From Caballeronia sp. dw_276 (GTDB taxonomy: Bacteria > Pseudomonadota > Gammaproteobacteria > Burkholderiales > Burkholderiaceae), in the NCBI RefSeq assembly GCF_018449635.1, contig NZ_JAAVUV010000002.1, positions 576,197-640,196 of the forward strand: a stretch of DNA of 64,000 bases. Reading direction: 5' to 3'. The notes below the pieces were generated by a model. That model saw only the letters and a list, made by a program, of their open reading frames with translations, was not told where the DNA came from and searched no databases. This document shows, one piece after another, positions 2,816 to 63,977 of this stretch; the stretch's first letter is position 1, and the number at the start of each line of letters is the position of its first letter. A program made the position numbers and the translations under genes.

Positions 2816-4228
2816 ATGACGGCATCCGCCGATATCCCATCCGAACTCGGCCGATACCGCATCGAGCGTGTGCTCGGACGTGGCGCAATGGGCATTGTGT
2901 ACCTCGCGTTCGATCCGCAAATCGAGCGTCATGTCGCGCTTAAAACCATCCGCAACGAGTTGTTGCCGGCGGGTTCCGAAGGCGGATCGATGCATGAACT
3001 GACCGCGCGTTTTCTAAACGAAGCGCGTGCAGCCGGGCGTCTTGCGCATCCGAATATTGTCTCGGTGCATGACTACGGCGAGGCGGGAGACACGGCGTAC
3101 ATCACGATGGAATATGTGCGTGGGGAGAGTCTCGCCGCGCGCCTCGCGCAGCATGCCCGCAATCAGACGCGTATTGAACCGGCGCGTGCTTTGGGTTGCT
3201 TTGTGCAACTGCTCGATGCGCTCGACTATGCGCATCACGAGGGCGTGATTCATCGCGATATCAAGCCCGCAAATTTGCTGATCACGCAACGCGGCGAATG
3301 CAAGATCACGGACTTCGGCATTGCGCGGATCGAAGCGTCGCATCTCACGCAACTGGGCACGGTGATCGGCACGCCCAGCTACATGTCGCCGGAACAGTTC
3401 ACGGGTGAGACCATCGATGCTCGCGCCGATCTCTTTTCCGCCGCGGTCGTCCTGTATGAAATGCTGACGGGCGTATGTCCGTTTGCGGGCACGCCGACCG
3501 TCGTCATGCGGCAAGTGCTGAGCGAAACGCCAGTGTTGCCGTCGGAACGCGCGCCGGACTTGGCCAGCTTTATCGATGCGATGTTGATGAAGGCGCTTTC
3601 GAAACGGCCCGAGGATCGATACGGCTCCGCGCGTGAATGGCGCGATGTGCTGTTGGGCGCGCTCGGCGCGGCGCAATCCGACGACAGCGATCAGACCGTC
3701 ATTGCGTTTGCAAAGCCGGTTGCGTTGCTGGAAGCGCCCGAACTCGCCGAGCCTTCAATGGAATGGCCGCCCGAATTGATCGCGCAACTGGAGGAGCGGC
3801 TGGCGAGTCACGTGGGGCCGGTCGCCACAATCTTGCTGCGTCGTGCGACGGCCAGGTCTTCGGACTTCAACGCATTGCGCGAGCGGCTTGCCGCGCATTT
3901 CCCCACGGACGCCGCGCGTCGTGATTTTAATTCGCTGTTGATGCGGCTGGAAACGCCGGGGGAAGGATCGCGGGTTTTGTCGGGTATGAAGCGGACTTCA
4001 ATGCCCAAAAGTGAGTCGGTGAATTACGCAAGTATAAAACCCGACGTGCTGCAAGACGCCACGCTTAAACTCGCGGCTTATGTCGGGCCGATCGCACGCG
4101 TTATCGTGGTGCGCGCCGCCGCGAATGTGCCAGATATCGATACGTTTTACGACCGTTTGATTGCGGCCGTGCAGGATCAAAAAGATAGCGATGCGTTGCG
4201 GCGGGATCTTGGTATCGCGCCGGATTAG
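2816..4228 (+). CDS. Ser/Thr protein kinase, PpkA-like, next to T6SS
   Basis: The 470-residue protein has a full Hanks-type kinase domain: glycine loop GRGAMGIVY at 21-29, catalytic lysine in ALKTIRNE (K43), HRDIKPANLL with catalytic D148, DFG at 166-168 and the activation-loop SPEQ. It has no membrane segment, unlike PpkA of Pseudomonas, which has a TM and a periplasmic domain. The C-terminal part carries two copies of a unit of about 60 residues (roughly 325-385 and 415-470), each with a VGPIA/V core, then a helix pair; the function of the unit is unknown to me. Kinases of this type phosphorylate the FHA protein of T6SS loci to trigger assembly, and such an FHA gene lies at 11058-12515. The last 4 bp overlap convergently with tagF. 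Confidence 0.85.
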   Translation: MTASADIPSELGRYRIERVLGRGAMGIVYLAFDPQIERHVALKTIRNELLPAGSEGGSMHELTARFLNEARAAGRLAHPNIVSVHDYGEAGDTAYITMEYVRGESLAARLAQHARNQTRIEPARALGCFVQLLDALDYAHHEGVIHRDIKPANLLITQRGECKITDFGIARIEASHLTQLGTVIGTPSYMSPEQFTGETIDARADLFSAAVVLYEMLTGVCPFAGTPTVVMRQVLSETPVLPSERAPDLASFIDAMLMKALSKRPEDRYGSAREWRDVLLGALGAAQSDDSDQTVIAFAKPVALLEAPELAEPSMEWPPELIAQLEERLASHVGPVATILLRRATARSSDFNALRERLAAHFPTDAARRDFNSLLMRLETPGEGSRVLSGMKRTSMPKSESVNYASIKPDVLQDATLKLAAYVGPIARVIVVRAAANVPDIDTFYDRLIAAVQDQKDSDALRRDLGIAPD

Positions 4229-4824
4229 CCTTCTAGCAATCGCAAGAACAACGCTGCATCGGGCGCACCGTCATGCTTATGCAGCACTTGCGGCGCATGC
4301 AATTCCGTTGCCGTCCACCATACGCTCGCAACATCTGCTTCGCTCGAAAAGCGCTTGAACGTATCACGCCAGACCAGCGTCTCCGCGCCATCATCGAGTT
4401 GCTCCAGTTCCGTCTCGAACTCCGTCAGCGCGAACCTCGCCTTCAACGTCGATAACGCCAGGGCCGCCGCATGTTCGTACCAGACCGAACTGCTGCGCAG
4501 CCAGTCGCCGAAGACCGCTTGGTCCATCGGCCGCGCCACCACGAACGGAAAATAACGCCCGACCGCATCGATCCCCGGCATCATCACGCCCGCATACGCG
4601 GCGTCATCCATCACCCCGGGTTTCATCGCGAAGCACCATAGCGGCATGCCGAGAAAGTCTCGAAGCCATGCATCGCCGAGACGTTGTTGGGCCGTAATCA
4701 AACCGCGTTGCAGCCACGCGTCCCATTGCACGACAAACTCGTGCGACAACCCCCTTCCCACGAAGTCGCCATGTGTGCGCACTTTTCCGTAGAAGCCCGT
4801 GCCCGCTTCTTCAAGCTTGGTCAT
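4225..4824 (-). CDS. tagF: T6SS-associated protein TagF (ImpM/BMA_A0400 family)
   Basis: The 199-residue product has the family's characteristic N-terminal run (GFYGKVRTHGDFVGRGL), followed by WDAWLQRGL and a GRYFPFVVARP motif. TagF is a cytosolic protein that in Pseudomonas restrains T6SS assembly by binding the FHA protein, acting opposite to the kinase. Its length is typical for the single-domain form, without a fused PppA phosphatase. Its start overlaps the stop of tssM by 4 bp (ATGA), so it is the last gene of the secretion operon. No separate PppA phosphatase is visible in the window. Confidence 0.9.
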   Translation of the reverse strand: MTKLEEAGTGFYGKVRTHGDFVGRGLSHEFVVQWDAWLQRGLITAQQRLGDAWLRDFLGMPLWCFAMKPGVMDDAAYAGVMMPGIDAVGRYFPFVVARPMDQAVFGDWLRSSSVWYEHAAALALSTLKARFALTEFETELEQLDDGAETLVWRDTFKRFSSEADVASVWWTATELHAPQVLHKHDGAPDAALFLRLLEG

Positions 4825-57100: not shown

Positions 57101-57127
57101 GTGCATGGCGAGCACTTTAACGGTGCT
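57101..57127. promoter_or_regulatory. NtrC-like binding site
   Basis: AGCAC-TTTAACG-GTGCT (57111-57127 overall, GCAC 57112-57115 and GTGC 57123-57126) has the GCAC-N7-GTGC layout of NtrC sites such as those at glnA. A further GTGC at 57101-57104 puts three half-sites one helical turn (11 bp) apart. The dyad centre is about 107 bp upstream of the start site predicted from the sigma-54 match at 57200, a typical enhancer distance. Confidence 0.65.
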
Positions 57128-57199
57128 TGTGGTTCATCCTTTTCCCACATCGGTGCAAATCTGCGGTCCCTGAACACGGCCCAGAGGGCTCTCCTTCCA

Positions 57200-57216
57200 T
57201 GGCACGCTTCATGCAT
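57200..57216 (+). promoter_or_regulatory. Sigma-54 (RpoN) promoter of the nitrogen operon
   Basis: TGGCACG-CTTC-ATGCA matches the sigma-54 consensus TGGCACG-N4-TTGCW at all fixed positions but one. The invariant GG (57201-57202) and GC (57213-57214) have the required 10-bp gap. Transcription would start near 57226, inside the palindrome at 57217-57253 and about 60 bp before the first gene. Confidence 0.75.
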
Positions 57217-57253
57217 AGTGAATTATATTCAAGTAGCTTGAATATAATTCACT
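57217..57253. promoter_or_regulatory. 37-bp perfect palindrome over the predicted start site
   Basis: Arms AGTGAATTATATTCAAG (57217-57233) and CTTGAATATAATTCACT (57237-57253) are perfectly complementary around a TAG spacer. A 17-bp perfect arm is most unlikely by chance. It overlaps the predicted sigma-54 start site and lies 35 bp before the first ATG, so it may be a repressor operator or a stable 5' hairpin in the mRNA. A natural candidate binder is the XRE-cupin regulator at 62274-62915, which is inference. Confidence 0.8.
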
Positions 57254-57288
57254 AACCCATCATTGCGGCGCGACCGCACGGGAGCATC

Positions 57289-58146
57289 ATGCATAAGCCA
57301 CTTCGTACGTTTGTCCTGTCGATGACCGGCGCGTTTGCGCTGCTTGCATCGGCGCCCGGGTTCGCGCAGGGCAACGACCTGCTTGCACGCGTGAAGGCGA
57401 ACAAGGAGATCACCGTAGGCACAGAGGCGCGTTATGCGCCTTTCGAGTCGATCGAGAACGGCAAGATCGTGGGGTACGACGCGGACCTGCTGCAGTACAT
57501 ATTGAAGTCGCTGCCCGATGTAAAACTCAAGCAGCTCGACCTCCCATTCCAGGGCTTGCTGCCCGGCCTCGATGCCAAACGCTTCGACATGGTGATCACC
57601 GCCGTCACGGTGAACAAAGACCGTGCGAGCCATTTCGCCTTCACGTTGCCTGTTGCCGATGCCACCGCAGGCGTGCTGGTGCGTTCCAACGAAGCATCGA
57701 TCAAATCACCGAACGACCTGAATGGCAAGATCGTGGGCTCGCAAACGGGTTCCGCCCAGTTGCAGGCCTTGATGGCGCTCGATAAAAACCTGAAGGCCGC
57801 GGGCGGTCCGGGCATCAAGCAAATCAAGCAGTACGTCGCTTTCGATGAAGCCTACGCGGACCTCGCGGTCGGCCGGCTCGACGCGGTCGCGCAGTCGGTC
57901 GCGAACCTCGGGCCCTTGCTGAAGTCGCGTCCGGGCGTTTTCACAGTATTGCCGCAGAGCATTGGACCGAAGAGCTACTTTGCGTGGGTCGCGCGCAAGG
58001 ACGAGGACAGCGCCGCGCTGCTCAAGGTCTTTAGCGATGGCATTGCGCGTGCGAACAAGGACGGCACCATGAAAGCGCTGCAGATGAAGTGGTTCGGCAC
58101 GACCATGGATGTTCCTTCTGACGCAGTTCCCGAACCGTCGATGTAA
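57289..58146 (+). CDS. Polar amino-acid-type ABC transporter binding protein
   Basis: The 285-residue protein has a signal peptide (FVLSMTGAFALLASAPGFAQG) and a family-3 solute-binding fold (VGTEARYAPFESIENGKIVGYDADLL key part ARYAPFE; GSQTGSAQ; AVGRLDAVAQSV). Such proteins bind amino acids, opines or guanidino compounds. It is the first gene of the operon whose control region lies at 57101-57253. The next gene starts 15 bp later. Confidence 0.93.
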   Translation: MHKPLRTFVLSMTGAFALLASAPGFAQGNDLLARVKANKEITVGTEARYAPFESIENGKIVGYDADLLQYILKSLPDVKLKQLDLPFQGLLPGLDAKRFDMVITAVTVNKDRASHFAFTLPVADATAGVLVRSNEASIKSPNDLNGKIVGSQTGSAQLQALMALDKNLKAAGGPGIKQIKQYVAFDEAYADLAVGRLDAVAQSVANLGPLLKSRPGVFTVLPQSIGPKSYFAWVARKDEDSAALLKVFSDGIARANKDGTMKALQMKWFGTTMDVPSDAVPEPSM

Positions 58147-58161
58147 TCACCGTTCATCGAC

Positions 58162-58824
58162 ATGAACCCTCCCGATCTTCTCGCGCGGTGCGCAAGCTAT
58201 TTGCCGCAATTGCTGGACGGCGCGATCACCACGTTGTGGCTTTCCGCCATTGCGGTGGCGTGCGGTTTCTTCGCGGGCATCTTCATCTACATGATGTCGG
58301 CGAGCGAAAGCCGGACCTTGTCCACGGCCGCGCGCGTGTACGTCAGCGTGTTTCGCGGCACGCCCGTGCTCGCGCAACTACTGGTGTTCTATTACGTGCC
58401 CTCGGGCCTCGGATGGGCGATTCCCGGCGTGGTCGCGGCGGCAATCGGGTTATCGATGAATACGGCTGCGTATCAGTCGCAAATTCTCGGCACGGGATTC
58501 ACAGCTATTCCACGCGGGCAGATCGAGGCAGCGCAGACTTTCAATCTGACGCGGCGCCAGACCTTGTGGCATGTCGAGATCCCGCAAGTGGTCGCGCTGA
58601 CGCTGCCCGCGCTGGTCTCGGAGATGATCGATATCGTGAAGGCGTCGGCGGTGGTATCGGTGATTGCCGTGACGGACCTGATGCGTGTCGGGCAGCAATT
58701 GTCTTCGTTCAGCTACCGGCCGCTCGAGGTCTATACGCTCGCCGCGTGCTTCTATCTCGTGATCACGTCGATGCTTTCCCTCGCTGGAAGGGGAATCGAA
58801 CGGCGCATGGCACGGAGGGCGTGA
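58162..58824 (+). CDS. Polar amino-acid-type ABC transporter permease 1
   Basis: The 220-residue HisM/HisQ-type membrane protein has about five helices and the EAA loop of this family (IEAAQTFNLTRRQTLWHVEIPQ, key EAAQTFNLTRRQ). VFRGTPVLAQLLVFYY is typical of the N-terminal half. It begins 15 bp after the binding protein and ends 5 bp before the second permease. Confidence 0.93.
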   Translation: MNPPDLLARCASYLPQLLDGAITTLWLSAIAVACGFFAGIFIYMMSASESRTLSTAARVYVSVFRGTPVLAQLLVFYYVPSGLGWAIPGVVAAAIGLSMNTAAYQSQILGTGFTAIPRGQIEAAQTFNLTRRQTLWHVEIPQVVALTLPALVSEMIDIVKASAVVSVIAVTDLMRVGQQLSSFSYRPLEVYTLAACFYLVITSMLSLAGRGIERRMARRA

Positions 58825-58829
58825 CCAAC

Positions 58830-59483
58830 ATGAACAGCTTTCTCGCGCTCATTCCACGCTTTGCGGATGCCATTGTCGTTACGCTCGAAGTCAGCGTGCT
58901 GGCGGCCGTCGTTGGCGCGTCCGGCGGCTTTATGTTGAACGCGTTGCGCCTCACGTTTCCGAAGTGGCTCAGCGCGCCATATCGCGTGTATGTATGGCTT
59001 GTTCGGGGTACGCCGTACCTTTCGCAACTCGTGATTGTCTACTTTGGCCTGCCCGTAATCGGCATCACGATGACCGCCGTACAGGCGACCATTGTTTCGC
59101 TTGCGATCTATTCCGCCGCCTATTTCGCGGAGATCTTCCGCGCGGGCTGGGCCAGTATTCCACGCGGACATATGGAAGCGGCGCGCGCATTCGGCATCAG
59201 CCGATGGTCCGCGTTTCGCAGCATCGAACTGCCTCAGGCCGTTGCATTCGCCGTCCCGTTGCTTGCCAACCAGACCATTCTCGTCATCAAGGAAAGCGCG
59301 GTTGCATCGATCATCACGGTGCCGGAACTGACCATGACCGCAAGCGACATTGTCTCGTCCACATACACCTACATTGGCCCATACGCGATGTTGATCATCT
59401 GCTACTGGCTCCTTACGCAATGCGTTGCTGTTGCCTTCAAGTGGGCATCGGCGTTCATCGCACTTTCGCGCAAACCCTCATGA
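58830..59483 (+). CDS. Polar amino-acid-type ABC transporter permease 2
   Basis: The ATG at 58830 (GGAGGG upstream) gives 217 residues; the long frame starting earlier overlaps permease 1 out of phase. It has VWLVRGTPYLSQLVIVYF, the EAA loop MEAARAFGISRWSAFRSIELPQ (key EAARAFGISRW) and four to five helices. It completes the channel with permease 1. Its stop overlaps the ATPase start as ATGA. Confidence 0.93.
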   Translation: MNSFLALIPRFADAIVVTLEVSVLAAVVGASGGFMLNALRLTFPKWLSAPYRVYVWLVRGTPYLSQLVIVYFGLPVIGITMTAVQATIVSLAIYSAAYFAEIFRAGWASIPRGHMEAARAFGISRWSAFRSIELPQAVAFAVPLLANQTILVIKESAVASIITVPELTMTASDIVSSTYTYIGPYAMLIICYWLLTQCVAVAFKWASAFIALSRKPS

Positions 59484-60283
59484 GTTCACTTCCCATTCTC
59501 GAACTTCGCGCCGTGGGCAAATCGTATGGTGCGAATCGTGTGCTCAAGGGCATCGACCTCACCGTACAGCGCGGCGAAATTGTTTCGCTGATCGGACCGT
59601 CGGGCTCCGGCAAGACAACGGCGCTGCGCTGCATGAACTTCCTCGAAGCCTACGATGAAGGCGAGGTCTGGATCAAAGGCCAGTTGCTTGGTTATCGATC
59701 GGCGGGCCGCACAGAGCGTGACCGCGATAGCGAAAAGAGTATTGCCGAAGTGCGCCGGCCAGTTGCAATGGTCTTCCAGCAATTCAACCTGTGGCCACAT
59801 ATGACCGTGCTCGGCAACGTGGCGGCGCCACTGGTGCTATCGAAGAAAGCAGGCAAGGCCGATGCACACAAACAAGCGCTCGCTGCGCTCACACGCGTCG
59901 GTCTCGCCGAGAAGGCGAATGCGTATCCCGCGTCGCTGAGCGGCGGCCAGCAGCAACGCGTGGGCATTGCGCGCGCCTTGGCGATCGAACCCGAAGTCAT
60001 GCTGCTCGATGAACCCACGTCGGCGCTCGACCCCGAACTCGTGGAAGAAGTGTTGAGCGTGATCCGCTCGCTCGCGCAAGACGGCATGACGATGGTGATG
60101 GTCACGCACGAGATGAATTTCGCCGCCAAGATCTCGGATCACGTGGTGTTCATGGAAGCCGGAAAGATTGTCGAAGCAGGACCGCCTGAGCAACTCTTCG
60201 GCAACACGCGCACGCCGCGTTTGCAGCAGTTCCTGAAGCCCTGGTTCGATCGCAGCCTGACATCGGTCTCGGGAGTCGCATGA
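59480..60283 (+). CDS. Polar amino-acid-type ABC transporter ATP-binding protein
   Basis: The ATG at 59480 gives 267 residues. Walker A GPSGSGKTT, Q-loop VFQQFNLWPHMTVLGNV, signature LSGGQQQRVGIARAL, Walker B VMLLDEPTSALD and switch His THEMNFA are intact. An insertion after the first strand (LGYRSAGRTERDRDSEKS) is longer than in GlnQ. Its stop overlaps the start of the amidohydrolase (ATGA), so transport and catabolism are co-translated. Confidence 0.95.
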   Translation: MSSLPILELRAVGKSYGANRVLKGIDLTVQRGEIVSLIGPSGSGKTTALRCMNFLEAYDEGEVWIKGQLLGYRSAGRTERDRDSEKSIAEVRRPVAMVFQQFNLWPHMTVLGNVAAPLVLSKKAGKADAHKQALAALTRVGLAEKANAYPASLSGGQQQRVGIARALAIEPEVMLLDEPTSALDPELVEEVLSVIRSLAQDGMTMVMVTHEMNFAAKISDHVVFMEAGKIVEAGPPEQLFGNTRTPRLQQFLKPWFDRSLTSVSGVA

Positions 60284-61527
60284 TGCAAGACGACGCGATT
60301 AAAGCTGCCTCAAGCATCGATGCGAGCCGCCTTCTCGAATCCATCCAGACGCTTGCGAAATTCGGCGCCCGTGATGACGGTGGCGTCGACAGACCGGCAC
60401 TTTCCGCAATCGATATAGACGCGCGGCGGCATCTGATCGAACGCGCTGTTGCACTTGGCTGCACGGTCCGCACGGATGCTTGTGCAAATCTCTTCTTCCG
60501 GCGCGAGGGTCTCGAAGACTTGCCGCCGGTAATGACCGGCAGTCATATCGATACACAACCCACGGGCGGCAAACTCGACGGTTGTTATGGCGTGCTCGCG
60601 GGCTTCGAATGCCTCGCCGCGTTGAACGATGCCGGCATCCCGACGCGCCGCCCGTTCGAAGTAGTTGCATGGACCAACGAAGAAGGCACGCGCTTCCAAC
60701 CCGGCGCAATGGGTTCGAGTGCGTTCGTCGATCCTGCGTTGTTGGACCGTTATAAAGAAGCGAAGGACGGCGACGGCATCACGCTCGGTGCCGCACTTGC
60801 CGCTCATCGCGATGCCTTTTCTTCGCTCGAAACACGAGCCTCGCAAGACGCCCATGCATTCATTGAATTGCATATCGAGCAAGGTCCGCTACTCGAACTC
60901 GCCGATATCCCGCTCGGCGTAGTCACCGGCATCCAGGGCGTTCGATGGTACGCGGTCCACTGCAAGGGCGCGGCGGCTCACGCCGGCACCACCCCCATGC
61001 ATGCGCGCCACGACGCCATGACGCTCGCCGTCGCGGTGCGTGCGGAGATATCGGCGCTTGCTCACCAGTTAGGCCGCGACGACACGCGCATTACCTTCGG
61101 CCGATGGACCGTCTTGCCCAACTCCATCAACACGATTGCTTCGGACGTCACGTTCACGGTCGACTTCCGCCATCCGGACGCATCTGTCCTCGATGCGTTC
61201 GATACACAACTGAACGCGTGCATCGAACGTCATGCGGCCACGCACGAAGCGCTGTTCACGCATCCGCCGGTCACCTTCGCGCCCTTGGTCGTCCGGCGCG
61301 TCGCGGAAGCATGCAACGCGCTCTCATCACCCTCGATGAACATCACCTCCGGCGCATTCCACGACGCCATGTACCTGGCGAAGCATTGCCCGACCGCAAT
61401 GCTTTTCGTCCCGAGTCGCGGCGGCATCAGCCATAACCCGCTTGAAGCCACCGACGACGATCACCTCGTTCTGGGCACGCGCGCGCTCGCGCACTGCCTG
61501 GTCCGTCTTTGCAACGAAGCACCTTGA
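60280..61527 (+). CDS. M20-family amidohydrolase (N-carbamoyl/allantoate hydrolase type)
   Basis: The 415-residue metalloenzyme has GSHIDTQPTGGKLDG (metal His and Asp), WTNEEGTRF (Glu pair), ELHIEQGPLLE (metal His) and the late HDAMYLAKHCPTAMLFVPS with a further His. This is the AllC/HyuC/N-carbamoyl-L-amino acid hydrolase group, which cleaves ureido groups and releases ammonia or CO2 plus ammonia. In this operon a ureido intermediate formed from a guanidino compound is a reasonable substrate; that is inference. Confidence 0.88.
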   Translation: MMQDDAIKAASSIDASRLLESIQTLAKFGARDDGGVDRPALSAIDIDARRHLIERAVALGCTVRTDACANLFFRREGLEDLPPVMTGSHIDTQPTGGKLDGCYGVLAGFECLAALNDAGIPTRRPFEVVAWTNEEGTRFQPGAMGSSAFVDPALLDRYKEAKDGDGITLGAALAAHRDAFSSLETRASQDAHAFIELHIEQGPLLELADIPLGVVTGIQGVRWYAVHCKGAAAHAGTTPMHARHDAMTLAVAVRAEISALAHQLGRDDTRITFGRWTVLPNSINTIASDVTFTVDFRHPDASVLDAFDTQLNACIERHAATHEALFTHPPVTFAPLVVRRVAEACNALSSPSMNITSGAFHDAMYLAKHCPTAMLFVPSRGGISHNPLEATDDDHLVLGTRALAHCLVRLCNEAP

Positions 61528-61552
61528 AACCTATACGACTGAAGGAGTCACC

Positions 61553-62245
61553 ATGAGCACGCCGCACGTTGAACATCATCACGACAACAGCCATGAACTC
61601 GGCGAGAACGCCACGCTGCGCGAACCCATTTCCGCCGATGGCACGCCGGAGATCGGCAAGACCTATACGGTGCCGGCACGCAATGGCCGCGCGGTTCGTG
61701 TGAAGGCGGGTCAGACGATCCGCATTATCAACACGCACGGCACGCAGGTCTGCGACACCTGGATCTTCAATGCCAGTCACCTCGATGAATTCCTTTCGTT
61801 CGAACACGTGCGCGCGTCGCTCGACAAGGTGATCCCGCAAGCCGGCGATCCGCTGATGACCAACCATCGCCGGCCGATTGCCGAGCTTGTCGCCGATACT
61901 TCGCCCGGCGTACACGACACGCTGATGGCGGCTTGTGATTTGTATCGATACAAGAATCTCGGCGTGCATGGCTATCACGACAATTGCGCCGACAACATGC
62001 GCATGGCGCTGAAAGCGATCGGCCTGCGTGCGCGTGAAGTACCGCAACCGTTCAACCTGTGGATGAACATTCCCATCAAGCCGGACTATTCCATCGAGTG
62101 GCTCGCGCCGGTGTCGAAGGCGGGCGATCATGTGGACATCAAGGCCGTGATGGATTGCGTGGTGGTGATGTCCGCGTGCCCGCAGGATATTATTCCCATC
62201 AACGCGCTCAATCCGCTCGAAGTCGAATTCACGGTGCTGGCGTAG
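61553..62245 (+). CDS. DUF1989 (urea carboxylase-associated) family protein
   Basis: The ATG at 61553 has GAAGGAG 7 bp upstream and gives 230 residues. Three cysteines that bind metal in this family are visible (QVCDTWIF, YHDNCADNM, VMSACPQD), with a HGYHDNC motif. DUF1989 proteins accompany urea/guanidine carboxylase, and two of them form carboxyguanidine deiminase. Here there is a single copy without a carboxylase, next to an M20 hydrolase and a ureohydrolase, so a deiminase role on another guanidino compound is likely but unproven. The N-terminal His-rich run (HVEHHHDNSHE) is unusual. Confidence 0.88.
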   Translation: MSTPHVEHHHDNSHELGENATLREPISADGTPEIGKTYTVPARNGRAVRVKAGQTIRIINTHGTQVCDTWIFNASHLDEFLSFEHVRASLDKVIPQAGDPLMTNHRRPIAELVADTSPGVHDTLMAACDLYRYKNLGVHGYHDNCADNMRMALKAIGLRAREVPQPFNLWMNIPIKPDYSIEWLAPVSKAGDHVDIKAVMDCVVVMSACPQDIIPINALNPLEVEFTVLA

Positions 62246-62273
62246 ACCCCTAAACTTTAGAAGAGCCTTCCCG

Positions 62274-62915
62274 GTGGCCACAAAAATTCCCGCAGCACGA
62301 AAATCGGCCAGCGCACGCCCGCGAGCAGGCAACCCGGTCGAGGTCCAGGCTGATCCGGCTGCAGCACTCGGCGTGCGTCTCAAACACGCCCGCATGGTCA
62401 AGCAACTGACCCTGAAGGCGCTCGCAGAGCAAGCCGGCTGCTCGGAAAGCATGTTGTCCAAACTGGAAGGCGGCCACGCGCAGCCATCGCTTGCGACGCT
62501 TCACAAAATTGCGCTCGCGTTGTCGACTAATGTCGGCGCGCTGGTTTCCGGGCCCGACATCAACACGTCGCCTGTGCAGCGTGCGAGCGAGCGGCCGATG
62601 ACCGAGTTTCCATCGGCGGGAAAGCGGCTTTCGATCATGCTCGAACGCGTGATCGTGCCCGCCGCCGGACAGTTATTGCAGAGCGACATTCATGTGATCG
62701 AACCGCTTGCAAGCAGCGACGAACAGATCAGCCACGCGGGCGAAGAACTCGGTTATGTGATCGAAGGCGAGTTCGAACTGACGCTTGGAGAAGAGTGTTA
62801 TTTGCTGCACGCAGGCGATACGTTTTACTTTCCCAGCACCGTGCCACACAGTTACCGCAATCCAGGCACGACGGTGACACGCGTGCTGTGGACCAACACA
62901 CCGCCTACTTTCTGA
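62274..62915 (+). CDS. XRE-family regulator with C-terminal cupin domain
   Basis: A GTG start gives 213 residues. After a basic 30-residue tail there is an XRE helix-turn-helix (LTLKALAEQAGCSESMLSKLEGG) and then a cupin domain (DEQISHAGEELGYVIEGEFELTLGEECYLLHAGDTFYF, key parts GEELGYVIEG and HAGDTFYF). The PuuR-like layout is common for operons of amine and amino-acid catabolism, where the cupin senses a metabolite. It lies inside the operon and could bind the palindrome at 57217-57253. Confidence 0.92.
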   Translation: MATKIPAARKSASARPRAGNPVEVQADPAAALGVRLKHARMVKQLTLKALAEQAGCSESMLSKLEGGHAQPSLATLHKIALALSTNVGALVSGPDINTSPVQRASERPMTEFPSAGKRLSIMLERVIVPAAGQLLQSDIHVIEPLASSDEQISHAGEELGYVIEGEFELTLGEECYLLHAGDTFYFPSTVPHSYRNPGTTVTRVLWTNTPPTF

Positions 62916-62925
62916 CGAGAACATC

Positions 62926-63864
62926 ATGCCCGGCACCGATAGAAGCCAGATGGCGCTTCCGCGTTTCAGCGGCATTCCCACGTTCATGCGCGTGCCGTAT
63001 TGCACGAACATCGACGAGCTCGATATCGTGCTTGCCGGTGTTCCGTTCGATGGTGGTGTCACGGCGCGGCCTGGGGCGCGTTTTGGTCCGCGCGAGATCC
63101 GCAACATGTCGAGCATGACGCGCGCGATTCATCATGTATCGCGCTTCAATCCTTTCGATGTCTGCCGTGTTGGCGACATCGGCGATGTGCCGTTCACCGA
63201 TCTCTTTCATCTTGAACGTTCGCACGAAGATATCCGGCGCTTTTTCGAACCTGTGTTTGCAGCGGGCAAGATTGCGTTGAGCGCGGGCGGCGACCACTCG
63301 ATCACGTATCCGATTTTCCAGGCGATGGCGCCGAAGGCGCCTATCGGCATGGTGCATATCGATGCTCACACCGATACATGGGACAGTTTCAAGGGATCGA
63401 AATTCACGCATGGCGCGCCGTTTCGGCGGGCGGTCGAAGCGGGTCTGCTCGACCCGAAGCGCACGATTCAGATCGGCATTCGAGGCGCGCAAAATTCCGA
63501 TGAAGGCTGGCGCTATTCGTTGGAAAGCGGCATGCGGGTCGTGTTTATCGAGGAGTTTGACGAACGCGGAGTGAATGCGATCATCGGGGAAGCGCGCAAG
63601 GTGATTGGCGATGGCCCGGCGTATCTTTCGCTTGATGTCGATGGTCTGGATCCGGTCTATACGCCGGGGACGGGTACGCCGGAGATTGGCGGGCTTACGA
63701 CGCGGGAGACGCAGGCGCTGTTGCGCGGGCTTGACGGTATGAATTGGATCGGCGGGGATGTGGTAGAGGTTTCGCCACCCTACGACCCGAGTGGTAATAC
63801 GGCACTTGTTGCCGCTACGCTCATGTATGAGATTCTTTGTTTGCTGGCGCGGCGGGTTGATTGA
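62926..63864 (+). CDS. Ureohydrolase (agmatinase/guanidinobutyrase/guanidinopropionase type)
   Basis: The 312-residue enzyme has the binuclear manganese motifs GGDHS, DAHTDTWD and SLDVDGLDP, and the family's GARFGPREIRN and GTPEIGGLTTRE. It hydrolyses a guanidino group to urea and an amine. The N-terminal pattern (LPRFSGIPTFMRVPY, then an IRNMSSMTRAIHHVSRFNP run) recalls guanidinopropionase more than agmatinase, judged from memory. It is the last gene of the operon. Confidence 0.88.
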   Translation: MPGTDRSQMALPRFSGIPTFMRVPYCTNIDELDIVLAGVPFDGGVTARPGARFGPREIRNMSSMTRAIHHVSRFNPFDVCRVGDIGDVPFTDLFHLERSHEDIRRFFEPVFAAGKIALSAGGDHSITYPIFQAMAPKAPIGMVHIDAHTDTWDSFKGSKFTHGAPFRRAVEAGLLDPKRTIQIGIRGAQNSDEGWRYSLESGMRVVFIEEFDERGVNAIIGEARKVIGDGPAYLSLDVDGLDPVYTPGTGTPEIGGLTTRETQALLRGLDGMNWIGGDVVEVSPPYDPSGNTALVAATLMYEILCLLARRVD

Positions 63865-63887: not shown

Positions 63888-63977
63888 GGGGGTGGGGGTG
63901 GGGGTGGGGGTGGGGGTGGGGGTGGGGGTGGGGGTGGGGGTGGGGGTGGGGGTGGGGGTGGGGGTGGGGGTGGGGGT
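63888..63977. repeat. Fifteen tandem copies of GGGGGT
   Basis: Fifteen perfect 6-bp units run from 63888 to 63977, followed by imperfect G-rich sequence (GGGGGGGTTTG). It lies about 25 bp after the ureohydrolase stop. The G-runs could form G-quadruplexes on the plus strand. Long perfect runs of this kind vary by slippage and are prone to sequencing and assembly error. Confidence 0.95.

Follow-up and report, generated by a model that had tools for sequence, protein, structure and literature searches.

The conserved composite promoter upstream of a predicted eight-gene operon (57289-63864) in the window, a 64,000-nucleotide stretch of the 6.8-Mb genome of Caballeronia sp. dw_276 (G000:C12:576197-640196), is likely to act as an AND gate. 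As judged from sequence, NtrC and sigma-54 would activate transcription, and the XRE-cupin protein encoded in the operon would block it until an inducer is present. An original prediction for this DNA had held that the operon is switched on by nitrogen limitation and gated by a second regulator at a palindrome; it is right on the structure of the promoter and probably right on its function.

The sigma-54-type box, TGGCACGCTTCATGC (TGGCACG-CTTC-ATGC), has its GG at 57201-57202 (-25/-24) and its GC at 57213-57214 (-13/-12), with +1 placed at 57226 by taking the second G of the box as -24. It matches 9 of the 10 letters of the consensus GGcacg-N4-ttGC, as given in the available part of PMC5491218, such that the box predicted at 57200 with one mismatch and a 10-bp GG-GC gap is present as described. 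The predicted GCAC-N7-GTGC dyad about 107 bp upstream of the implied start was also found: GCAC-TTTAACG-GTGC is centred on 57119 (-107), and carries 8 of 8 core letters and 9 of the 12 letters of TGCACC-N5-GGTGCA. The palindrome over the start is indeed perfect, with arms of 18 nt (57216-57233 and 57237-57254) rather than the 17 bp first proposed, separated by a spacer of 3 nt; its first base lies two past the -12 C. Within it, a 17-bp operator core at +2 to +18 reads ATTCAAGTAGCTTGAAT, matching 15 of the 16 letters scored over the 17 bp of the consensus ATTCAAGTnACTTGAAT.

Features of the promoter region and of the predicted operon, with positions in the window
Feature	Position	Strand	Remark
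GTGCA half-site, first of three (-125)	57101..57105	+	GTGCA or GGTGCA at about -122 to -125 also in many relatives
NtrC-type dyad GCAC-N7-GTGC, centre -107	57112..57126	.	exact core in 21/38 promoters
GGTGCA half-site, third of array (-74)	57152..57157	+	at least one GGTGCA/TGCACC in 36/38 promoters
Predicted sigma-54 promoter (-24 GG, -12 GC, +1 at 57226)	57200..57214	+	GG-N10-GC in 38/38 promoters
Extended perfect palindrome, -10 to +29	57216..57254	.	outer arms imperfect in aligned relatives
Conserved operator core, predicted XRE-cupin regulator site	57227..57243	.	conservation and regulator co-occurrence
SBP_bac_3 ABC transporter solute-binding protein (SBP), first gene	57289..58146	+	
ABC permease (BPD_transp_1)	58162..58824	+	
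ABC permease (BPD_transp_1), second	58830..59483	+	
ABC ATPase (ABC_tran)	59480..60283	+	
M20 hydantoinase/carbamoylase-family amidase	60280..61527	+	TIGR01879, 366 bits (cut-off 204)
DUF1989 protein	61553..62245	+	urea-amidolyase-associated models match below cut-off
XRE-cupin protein, predicted binder of 57227-57243	62274..62915	+	HTH_3, HTH_31 and Cupin_2 above cut-off
Ureohydrolase (Arginase family)	62926..63864	+	closest solved relative 3-guanidinopropionase

Motif counts within the window were rejected as proof, since box and dyad occur there at chance level: the sigma-54 pattern with at most one mismatch is found once, compared to 2.54 expected from shuffles, and GCAC-N7-GTGC three times, compared to 2.77 expected. 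Across the full 6.8-Mb genome, the dyad followed after 50-80 bases by TGGCA-N7-TGC is found at a single place, compared to 0 for the reversed control. The case for the elements as regulatory sites rests on their conservation. A search with the SBP covered 61 genomes (37 of the same genus), 13 of which, own genome included, have a match of at least 80%. The GG-N10-GC box and the palindrome core align in all 13 same-genus orthologous upstream regions, and the eight genes, including the XRE-cupin gene, follow in the same order in each of the 13 fetched loci. The operator pattern TTCANGTNNCTTGANTNNNNTTC is present in 18 of 58 same-genus genomes (0 for reversed controls); in 17 of these it lies upstream of the SBP and first permease of the operon, the whole of which was checked in 13 of the 17, and the match in the remaining genome (G064) is a stray one without these genes.

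A wider set was assembled from an alignment of the 13 regulators, which led to 35 named loci and, with four same-genus loci and the window, to 40 regions from Caballeronia, Paraburkholderia, Burkholderia, Pandoraea, Rhodoferax, Polaromonas, Noviherbaspirillum, Paracidovorax, Pollutimonas and Comamonas. The core ATTCAAGTnACTTGAAT is present in 38 of these, a number to be read in light of the descent relating the promoters, which makes the counts other than independent trials. One of the two regions lacking the core is L110 (Noviherbaspirillum aerium), in which neither the SBP nor either of the two permeases was found; the other is L116 (Candidatus Burkholderia pumila), which retains only remnants of the operon genes. 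At L110, an open reading frame at 3912-4811 that reads like an insertion sequence integrase lies upstream of the ATPase gene, where the SBP and permeases would be. In all 38 core-bearing promoters a GG-N10-GC occurs 27-31 nt upstream of the operator TTCA, at exactly 27 nt in 34 of them, with 7-10 of the 10 box consensus letters. Three promoter stretches (L063, L065 and L074) are the same as those of L107, L082 and L105, leaving 35 distinct cores in 12 variants, among which seven letters on each side are nearly invariant. Of the predicted elements, the box accompanies the core in 38/38 promoters and the exact dyad does so in 21/38; the outer palindrome arms are not kept perfect in aligned relatives, and the part conserved across genera is the 17-bp core. 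In the upstream regions of ten paralogous SBPs (42-46% identical; L016-L025), boxes of 8/10 and exact dyads are absent, and operator matches do not exceed 11/16. At the level of sequence, box and operator core are conserved as one unit, in fixed order and near-constant spacing, before the same operon across Burkholderiales.

Scanning ~220 bases upstream of the box, the exact GCAC-N7-GTGC was found in 20 of the 35 distinct promoters (21/38 overall); the 17/38 promoters without it have at best half-sites. It occurs in 1.0% of 10250 random windows drawn from these loci and in 0.7% of 7600 shuffles. The dyads are centred at -96, -104 to -108, -117 and -146/-147, positions that would be compatible with helical steps. 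The 150 bases preceding the box contain a GGTGCA or TGCACC half-site in 36/38 promoters, compared to 6.6% of 10285 control windows; the other two promoters (L109 and L111) possess the dyad and no full half-site. In the C. cordobensis group, GGTGCA/TGCACC occurs at about -124 and -104, followed by an AGTGCA-type site at about -71, and the dyad in the window appears as the middle member of such a GGTGCA-type half-site array.

The genome itself encodes the corresponding proteins: an NtrC gene scoring 671.1 bits with its neighbour in the frame (cut-off 558.6), and two RpoN genes above the TIGR02395 cut-off (G000:C3:112698-114179 and G000:C23:373411-374859). Over the genome as a whole, the NtrC pattern shows no enrichment when one mismatch is allowed, with 26 matches compared to 49 for the reversed control. 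Fifteen of these 26 places (L117-L131) were examined for boxes of at least 8/10 within 260 bases either way. Twelve of the 15 have no such box, including L117, the sole perfect pattern match, and L121 and L123 lie by boxes of 8/10. The remaining place, L118 (G000:C1:360344), combines a 10/10 box with a dyad core of 7/8 at -140, upstream of a CP-ATPgrasp gene that we take to be of the same family as a DUF404/DUF407 gene of B. cenocepacia. The latter is strongly NtrC-dependent (log2 -8.2) according to the available part of PMC5491218. At the glnK-amtB promoter, a dyad with the exact core is present, though its distance from the 8/10 box is -298; these places are weak anchors only.

The second regulator postulated at the palindrome can be named, in that the operator co-occurs with the XRE-cupin gene: the palindrome-binding protein is very likely the XRE-cupin product of the operon itself. 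Eighteen plasmid loci with related regulators (19 identifiers, two being one record) were chosen out of lists of 121 and 323 records so as to cover a broad spread; a further locus, L143 of P. phymatum, has the core and was left out of this count. Operators of at least 14/16 were found at 7/8 loci with a regulator identity of 45-52%, at 1/4 with 42-43% (a Variovorax locus, 15/16) and at 0/6 with 33-37%. With a threshold of at least 13/16, the corresponding counts are 8/8, 1/4 and 1/6. For 200 shuffled palindromes, the mean number of loci at the higher threshold is 0.01, compared to the observed 8/18, and 0.4 (maximum 4) at the lower, compared to 10/18. No box of at least 7/10 lies within ~45 bases upstream of the operator in the five alphaproteobacterial operator loci or in Variovorax, and the regulator-operator pair therefore looks separable from the sigma-54 promoter. 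Three of the alphaproteobacterial loci (L147, L148 and L150) carry two operators 20 bp apart beside the XRE-cupin gene, again without a box. Genes for an M20 protein, carbamoylase or Zn-dependent hydrolase are among the annotated neighbours in 6 of the 18 loci, two of the six being without an operator; a regulator relative in Azospirillum that adjoins arginase-family as well as carbamoylase genes lacks an operator at its locus. In the own genome, the shorter pattern TTCAAGTNNCTTGAA occurs with one mismatch at 11 further places which, over 17 bp, score 12 (seven), 13 (three) and 14 (one) of 16. The latter, L040 (G000:C12:156773; ATTCAAGCTACTTAAAT), is a second operator match in this genome, and a second target of the regulator is conceivable.

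Versions of the operon also occur on plasmids of Klebsiella pneumoniae (L141, 7929-13492) and Pantoea dispersa (L142, 7986-13556). These comprise seven genes without the ureohydrolase and adjoin insertion sequences, with a transposase gene following the regulator. Both retain a box of 8/10 and an exact-core dyad, AGCACCATTTGAGTGCA (-154) and AGCACCATCACTGTGCA (-153), respectively, together with a weaker operator (14/16 letters in Klebsiella, 13/16 in Pantoea). The distance between box and operator is 24 in Klebsiella and 20 in Cupriavidus. In P. phymatum STM815, where the operon lies at about 627-634 kb of plasmid pBPHY01 (NC_010625), box and operator are present and the promoter has no dyad of at least 7/8. 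A regulator match was found in 19 Klebsiella plasmid records; 272 such records have an SBP match at E 1e-60, although identity is <60% for most matches of that search, which may represent different importers.

The genes of the operon overlap or are closely spaced, and the first four encode an amino-acid-type importer; the operon likely serves nitrogen scavenging. Among solved structures, the ureohydrolase is nearest to 3-guanidinopropionase (P. aeruginosa GpuA, PDB 3nip; 373 bits), with guanidinobutyrase at 285 bits. It differs from GpuA in its setting, alongside an ABC importer, M20 amidase, DUF1989 protein and XRE-cupin regulator, and in the replacement of Tyr157, a specificity position of 3-guanidinopropionase according to the available part of PMC10833137, by the aligned Phe155. 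Because the NCBIfam agmatinase model TIGR01230 also matches above its cut-off (199.6 bits, cut-off 174.3), a substrate related to a guanidino or ureido acid is only a guess.

From these features we infer a scheme of NtrC activation, XRE-cupin repression, ligand induction and feedback. Specifically, under nitrogen scarcity, phosphorylated NtrC would bind the half-sites near -125, -104 and -74 and loop to RNA polymerase at the sigma-54 promoter, such that NtrC and RpoN would switch on the operon under nitrogen limitation. An XRE-cupin dimer at +2 to +18, together with flanking half-sites, would obstruct polymerase or keep it from opening the DNA, and would let go of the operator once the cupin domain binds a compound related to the operon substrate, namely a guanidino or ureido acid. 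The regulator would also limit its own expression, because it is encoded by the seventh gene of the operon.

Each half of this arrangement resembles known systems. NtrC sites of comparable layout lie near -108 at glnA, and rut/RutR is an example of an NtrC promoter that also has a pathway repressor. A -24/-12 box, a dyad ~100 bp upstream and importer genes for nitrogen compounds are shared with glnA and with the B. cenocepacia NtrC regulon, as described in the available part of PMC5491218, whereas the promoter considered here has, at its start site, a further predicted operator for the operon's own pathway regulator. The regulator shares an XRE helix-turn-helix, a C-terminal cupin and a palindromic core-promoter site beside its own operon with Pseudomonas PsdR, PauR and ErfA (PMC7901475, PMC10965056, each as far as available). 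In the available part of PMC7901475, the P. aeruginosa XRE-cupin proteins with determined regulons are repressors, mostly of adjacent genes; three motifs have been determined and are palindromic, and the proteins are thought to leave DNA on sensing a pathway precursor. The operator differs in sequence from that of PsdR (ATTCAAG-N3-CTTGAAT here, TTAAG-N5-CTTAA in the available part of PMC10965056), and differs from the sites of the Pseudomonas repressors in lying at the start of what is predicted to be a sigma-54 promoter accompanied by NtrC-type sites. Searching the text of PMC7901475 for RpoN, NtrC, sigma or nitrogen gave 0 occurrences. The best NCBIfam match of the regulator is E. coli PuuR (equivalog NF007408); an assignment as PuuR was rejected, as 73 bits is far under the cut-off of 211, and the neighbouring genes differ.

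The box could be sigma-54 dependent and yet respond to a different signal, if an enhancer-binding activator other than NtrC occupied the GGTGCA array. Many NtrC relatives are encoded in the genome (19 NtrC-model matches >250 bits, one of them above the cut-off), and the promoters without an exact dyad would agree with such an activator. However, the half-site and its spacing match the NtrC consensus TGCACCAnnnTGGTGCA given in the available part of PMC8743547, the Klebsiella and Pantoea versions have kept their exact-core dyads, and the operon contains no activator gene. In addition, several ABC-transporter and ureide genes lose expression in a B. cenocepacia ntrC mutant (PMC5491218, available part). 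We regard a different activator as unlikely, and favor NtrC. A change of role for the XRE-cupin protein, from repressor to activator or coactivator of sigma-54 transcription, is compatible with the position of the palindrome alone, but a dimer on +2 to +18, or on the extended element from -10 to +29, would obstruct polymerase. Insofar as the P. aeruginosa relatives with determined regulons repress (PMC7901475, available part), this role is very unlikely.

Two further explanations concern the palindrome itself. Acting as RNA, it could form a hairpin at the 5' end of the transcript, serving to protect the mRNA or to sense a ligand, and the leader from +1 does fold into a hairpin of 8 bp closed by a loop of 3 nt. 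The 75-nt leader nevertheless folds no better than shuffles (z -0.83), and the core is near-fixed in the 35 distinct promoters, where the rare changes break pairs or leave wobbles and none is compensated. The element also occurs beside related alphaproteobacterial regulators, at operators for which the scan found no sigma-54-type box; altogether, a function as RNA is highly improbable compared to one as a DNA operator. Least probable of all is transcription from a sigma-70 promoter. The right arm of the palindrome does contain a perfect TATAAT (57243-57248), but most aligned relatives differ at this position (e.g. ATTTAATTC or ATACACTC), whereas the -24/-12 letters of the predicted sigma-54 promoter are kept.

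A search of the available literature found no study of the ATTCAAGTnACTTGAAT operator or of the eight-gene operon. What the analysis adds for this operon, which recurs among many Burkholderiales, is a promoter type together with a 17-bp operator and a candidate for the regulator. If the proposed gate is true, a start-site repressor site on a sigma-54 promoter, combined with a global nitrogen activator, would constitute a natural and compact switch with two inputs. Confirmation of the substrate would help to assign a role to a DUF1989 protein. More tentatively, and with less than even confidence, ATTCAAGTnACTTGAAT might mark an undescribed branch of XRE-cupin repressors that spans alpha-, beta- and gammaproteobacteria and is linked to M20 carbamoylase-type genes. 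Its operator would have docked on an NtrC/sigma-54 start site in the beta- and gammaproteobacterial operons, producing a portable AND gate of nitrogen scarcity and substrate that is also carried on plasmids. In the same tentative scheme, the DUF1989 protein might be a guanidino-acid deiminase, with the M20 enzyme cleaving the ureido-acid product and the ureohydrolase providing a dispensable second route.

Beyond the operon, 15 perfect tandem copies of GGGGGT (63888-63977) start 24 bases after the final base of the last gene and stop 23 bases short of the contig end, and the assembly may have broken at this repeat.
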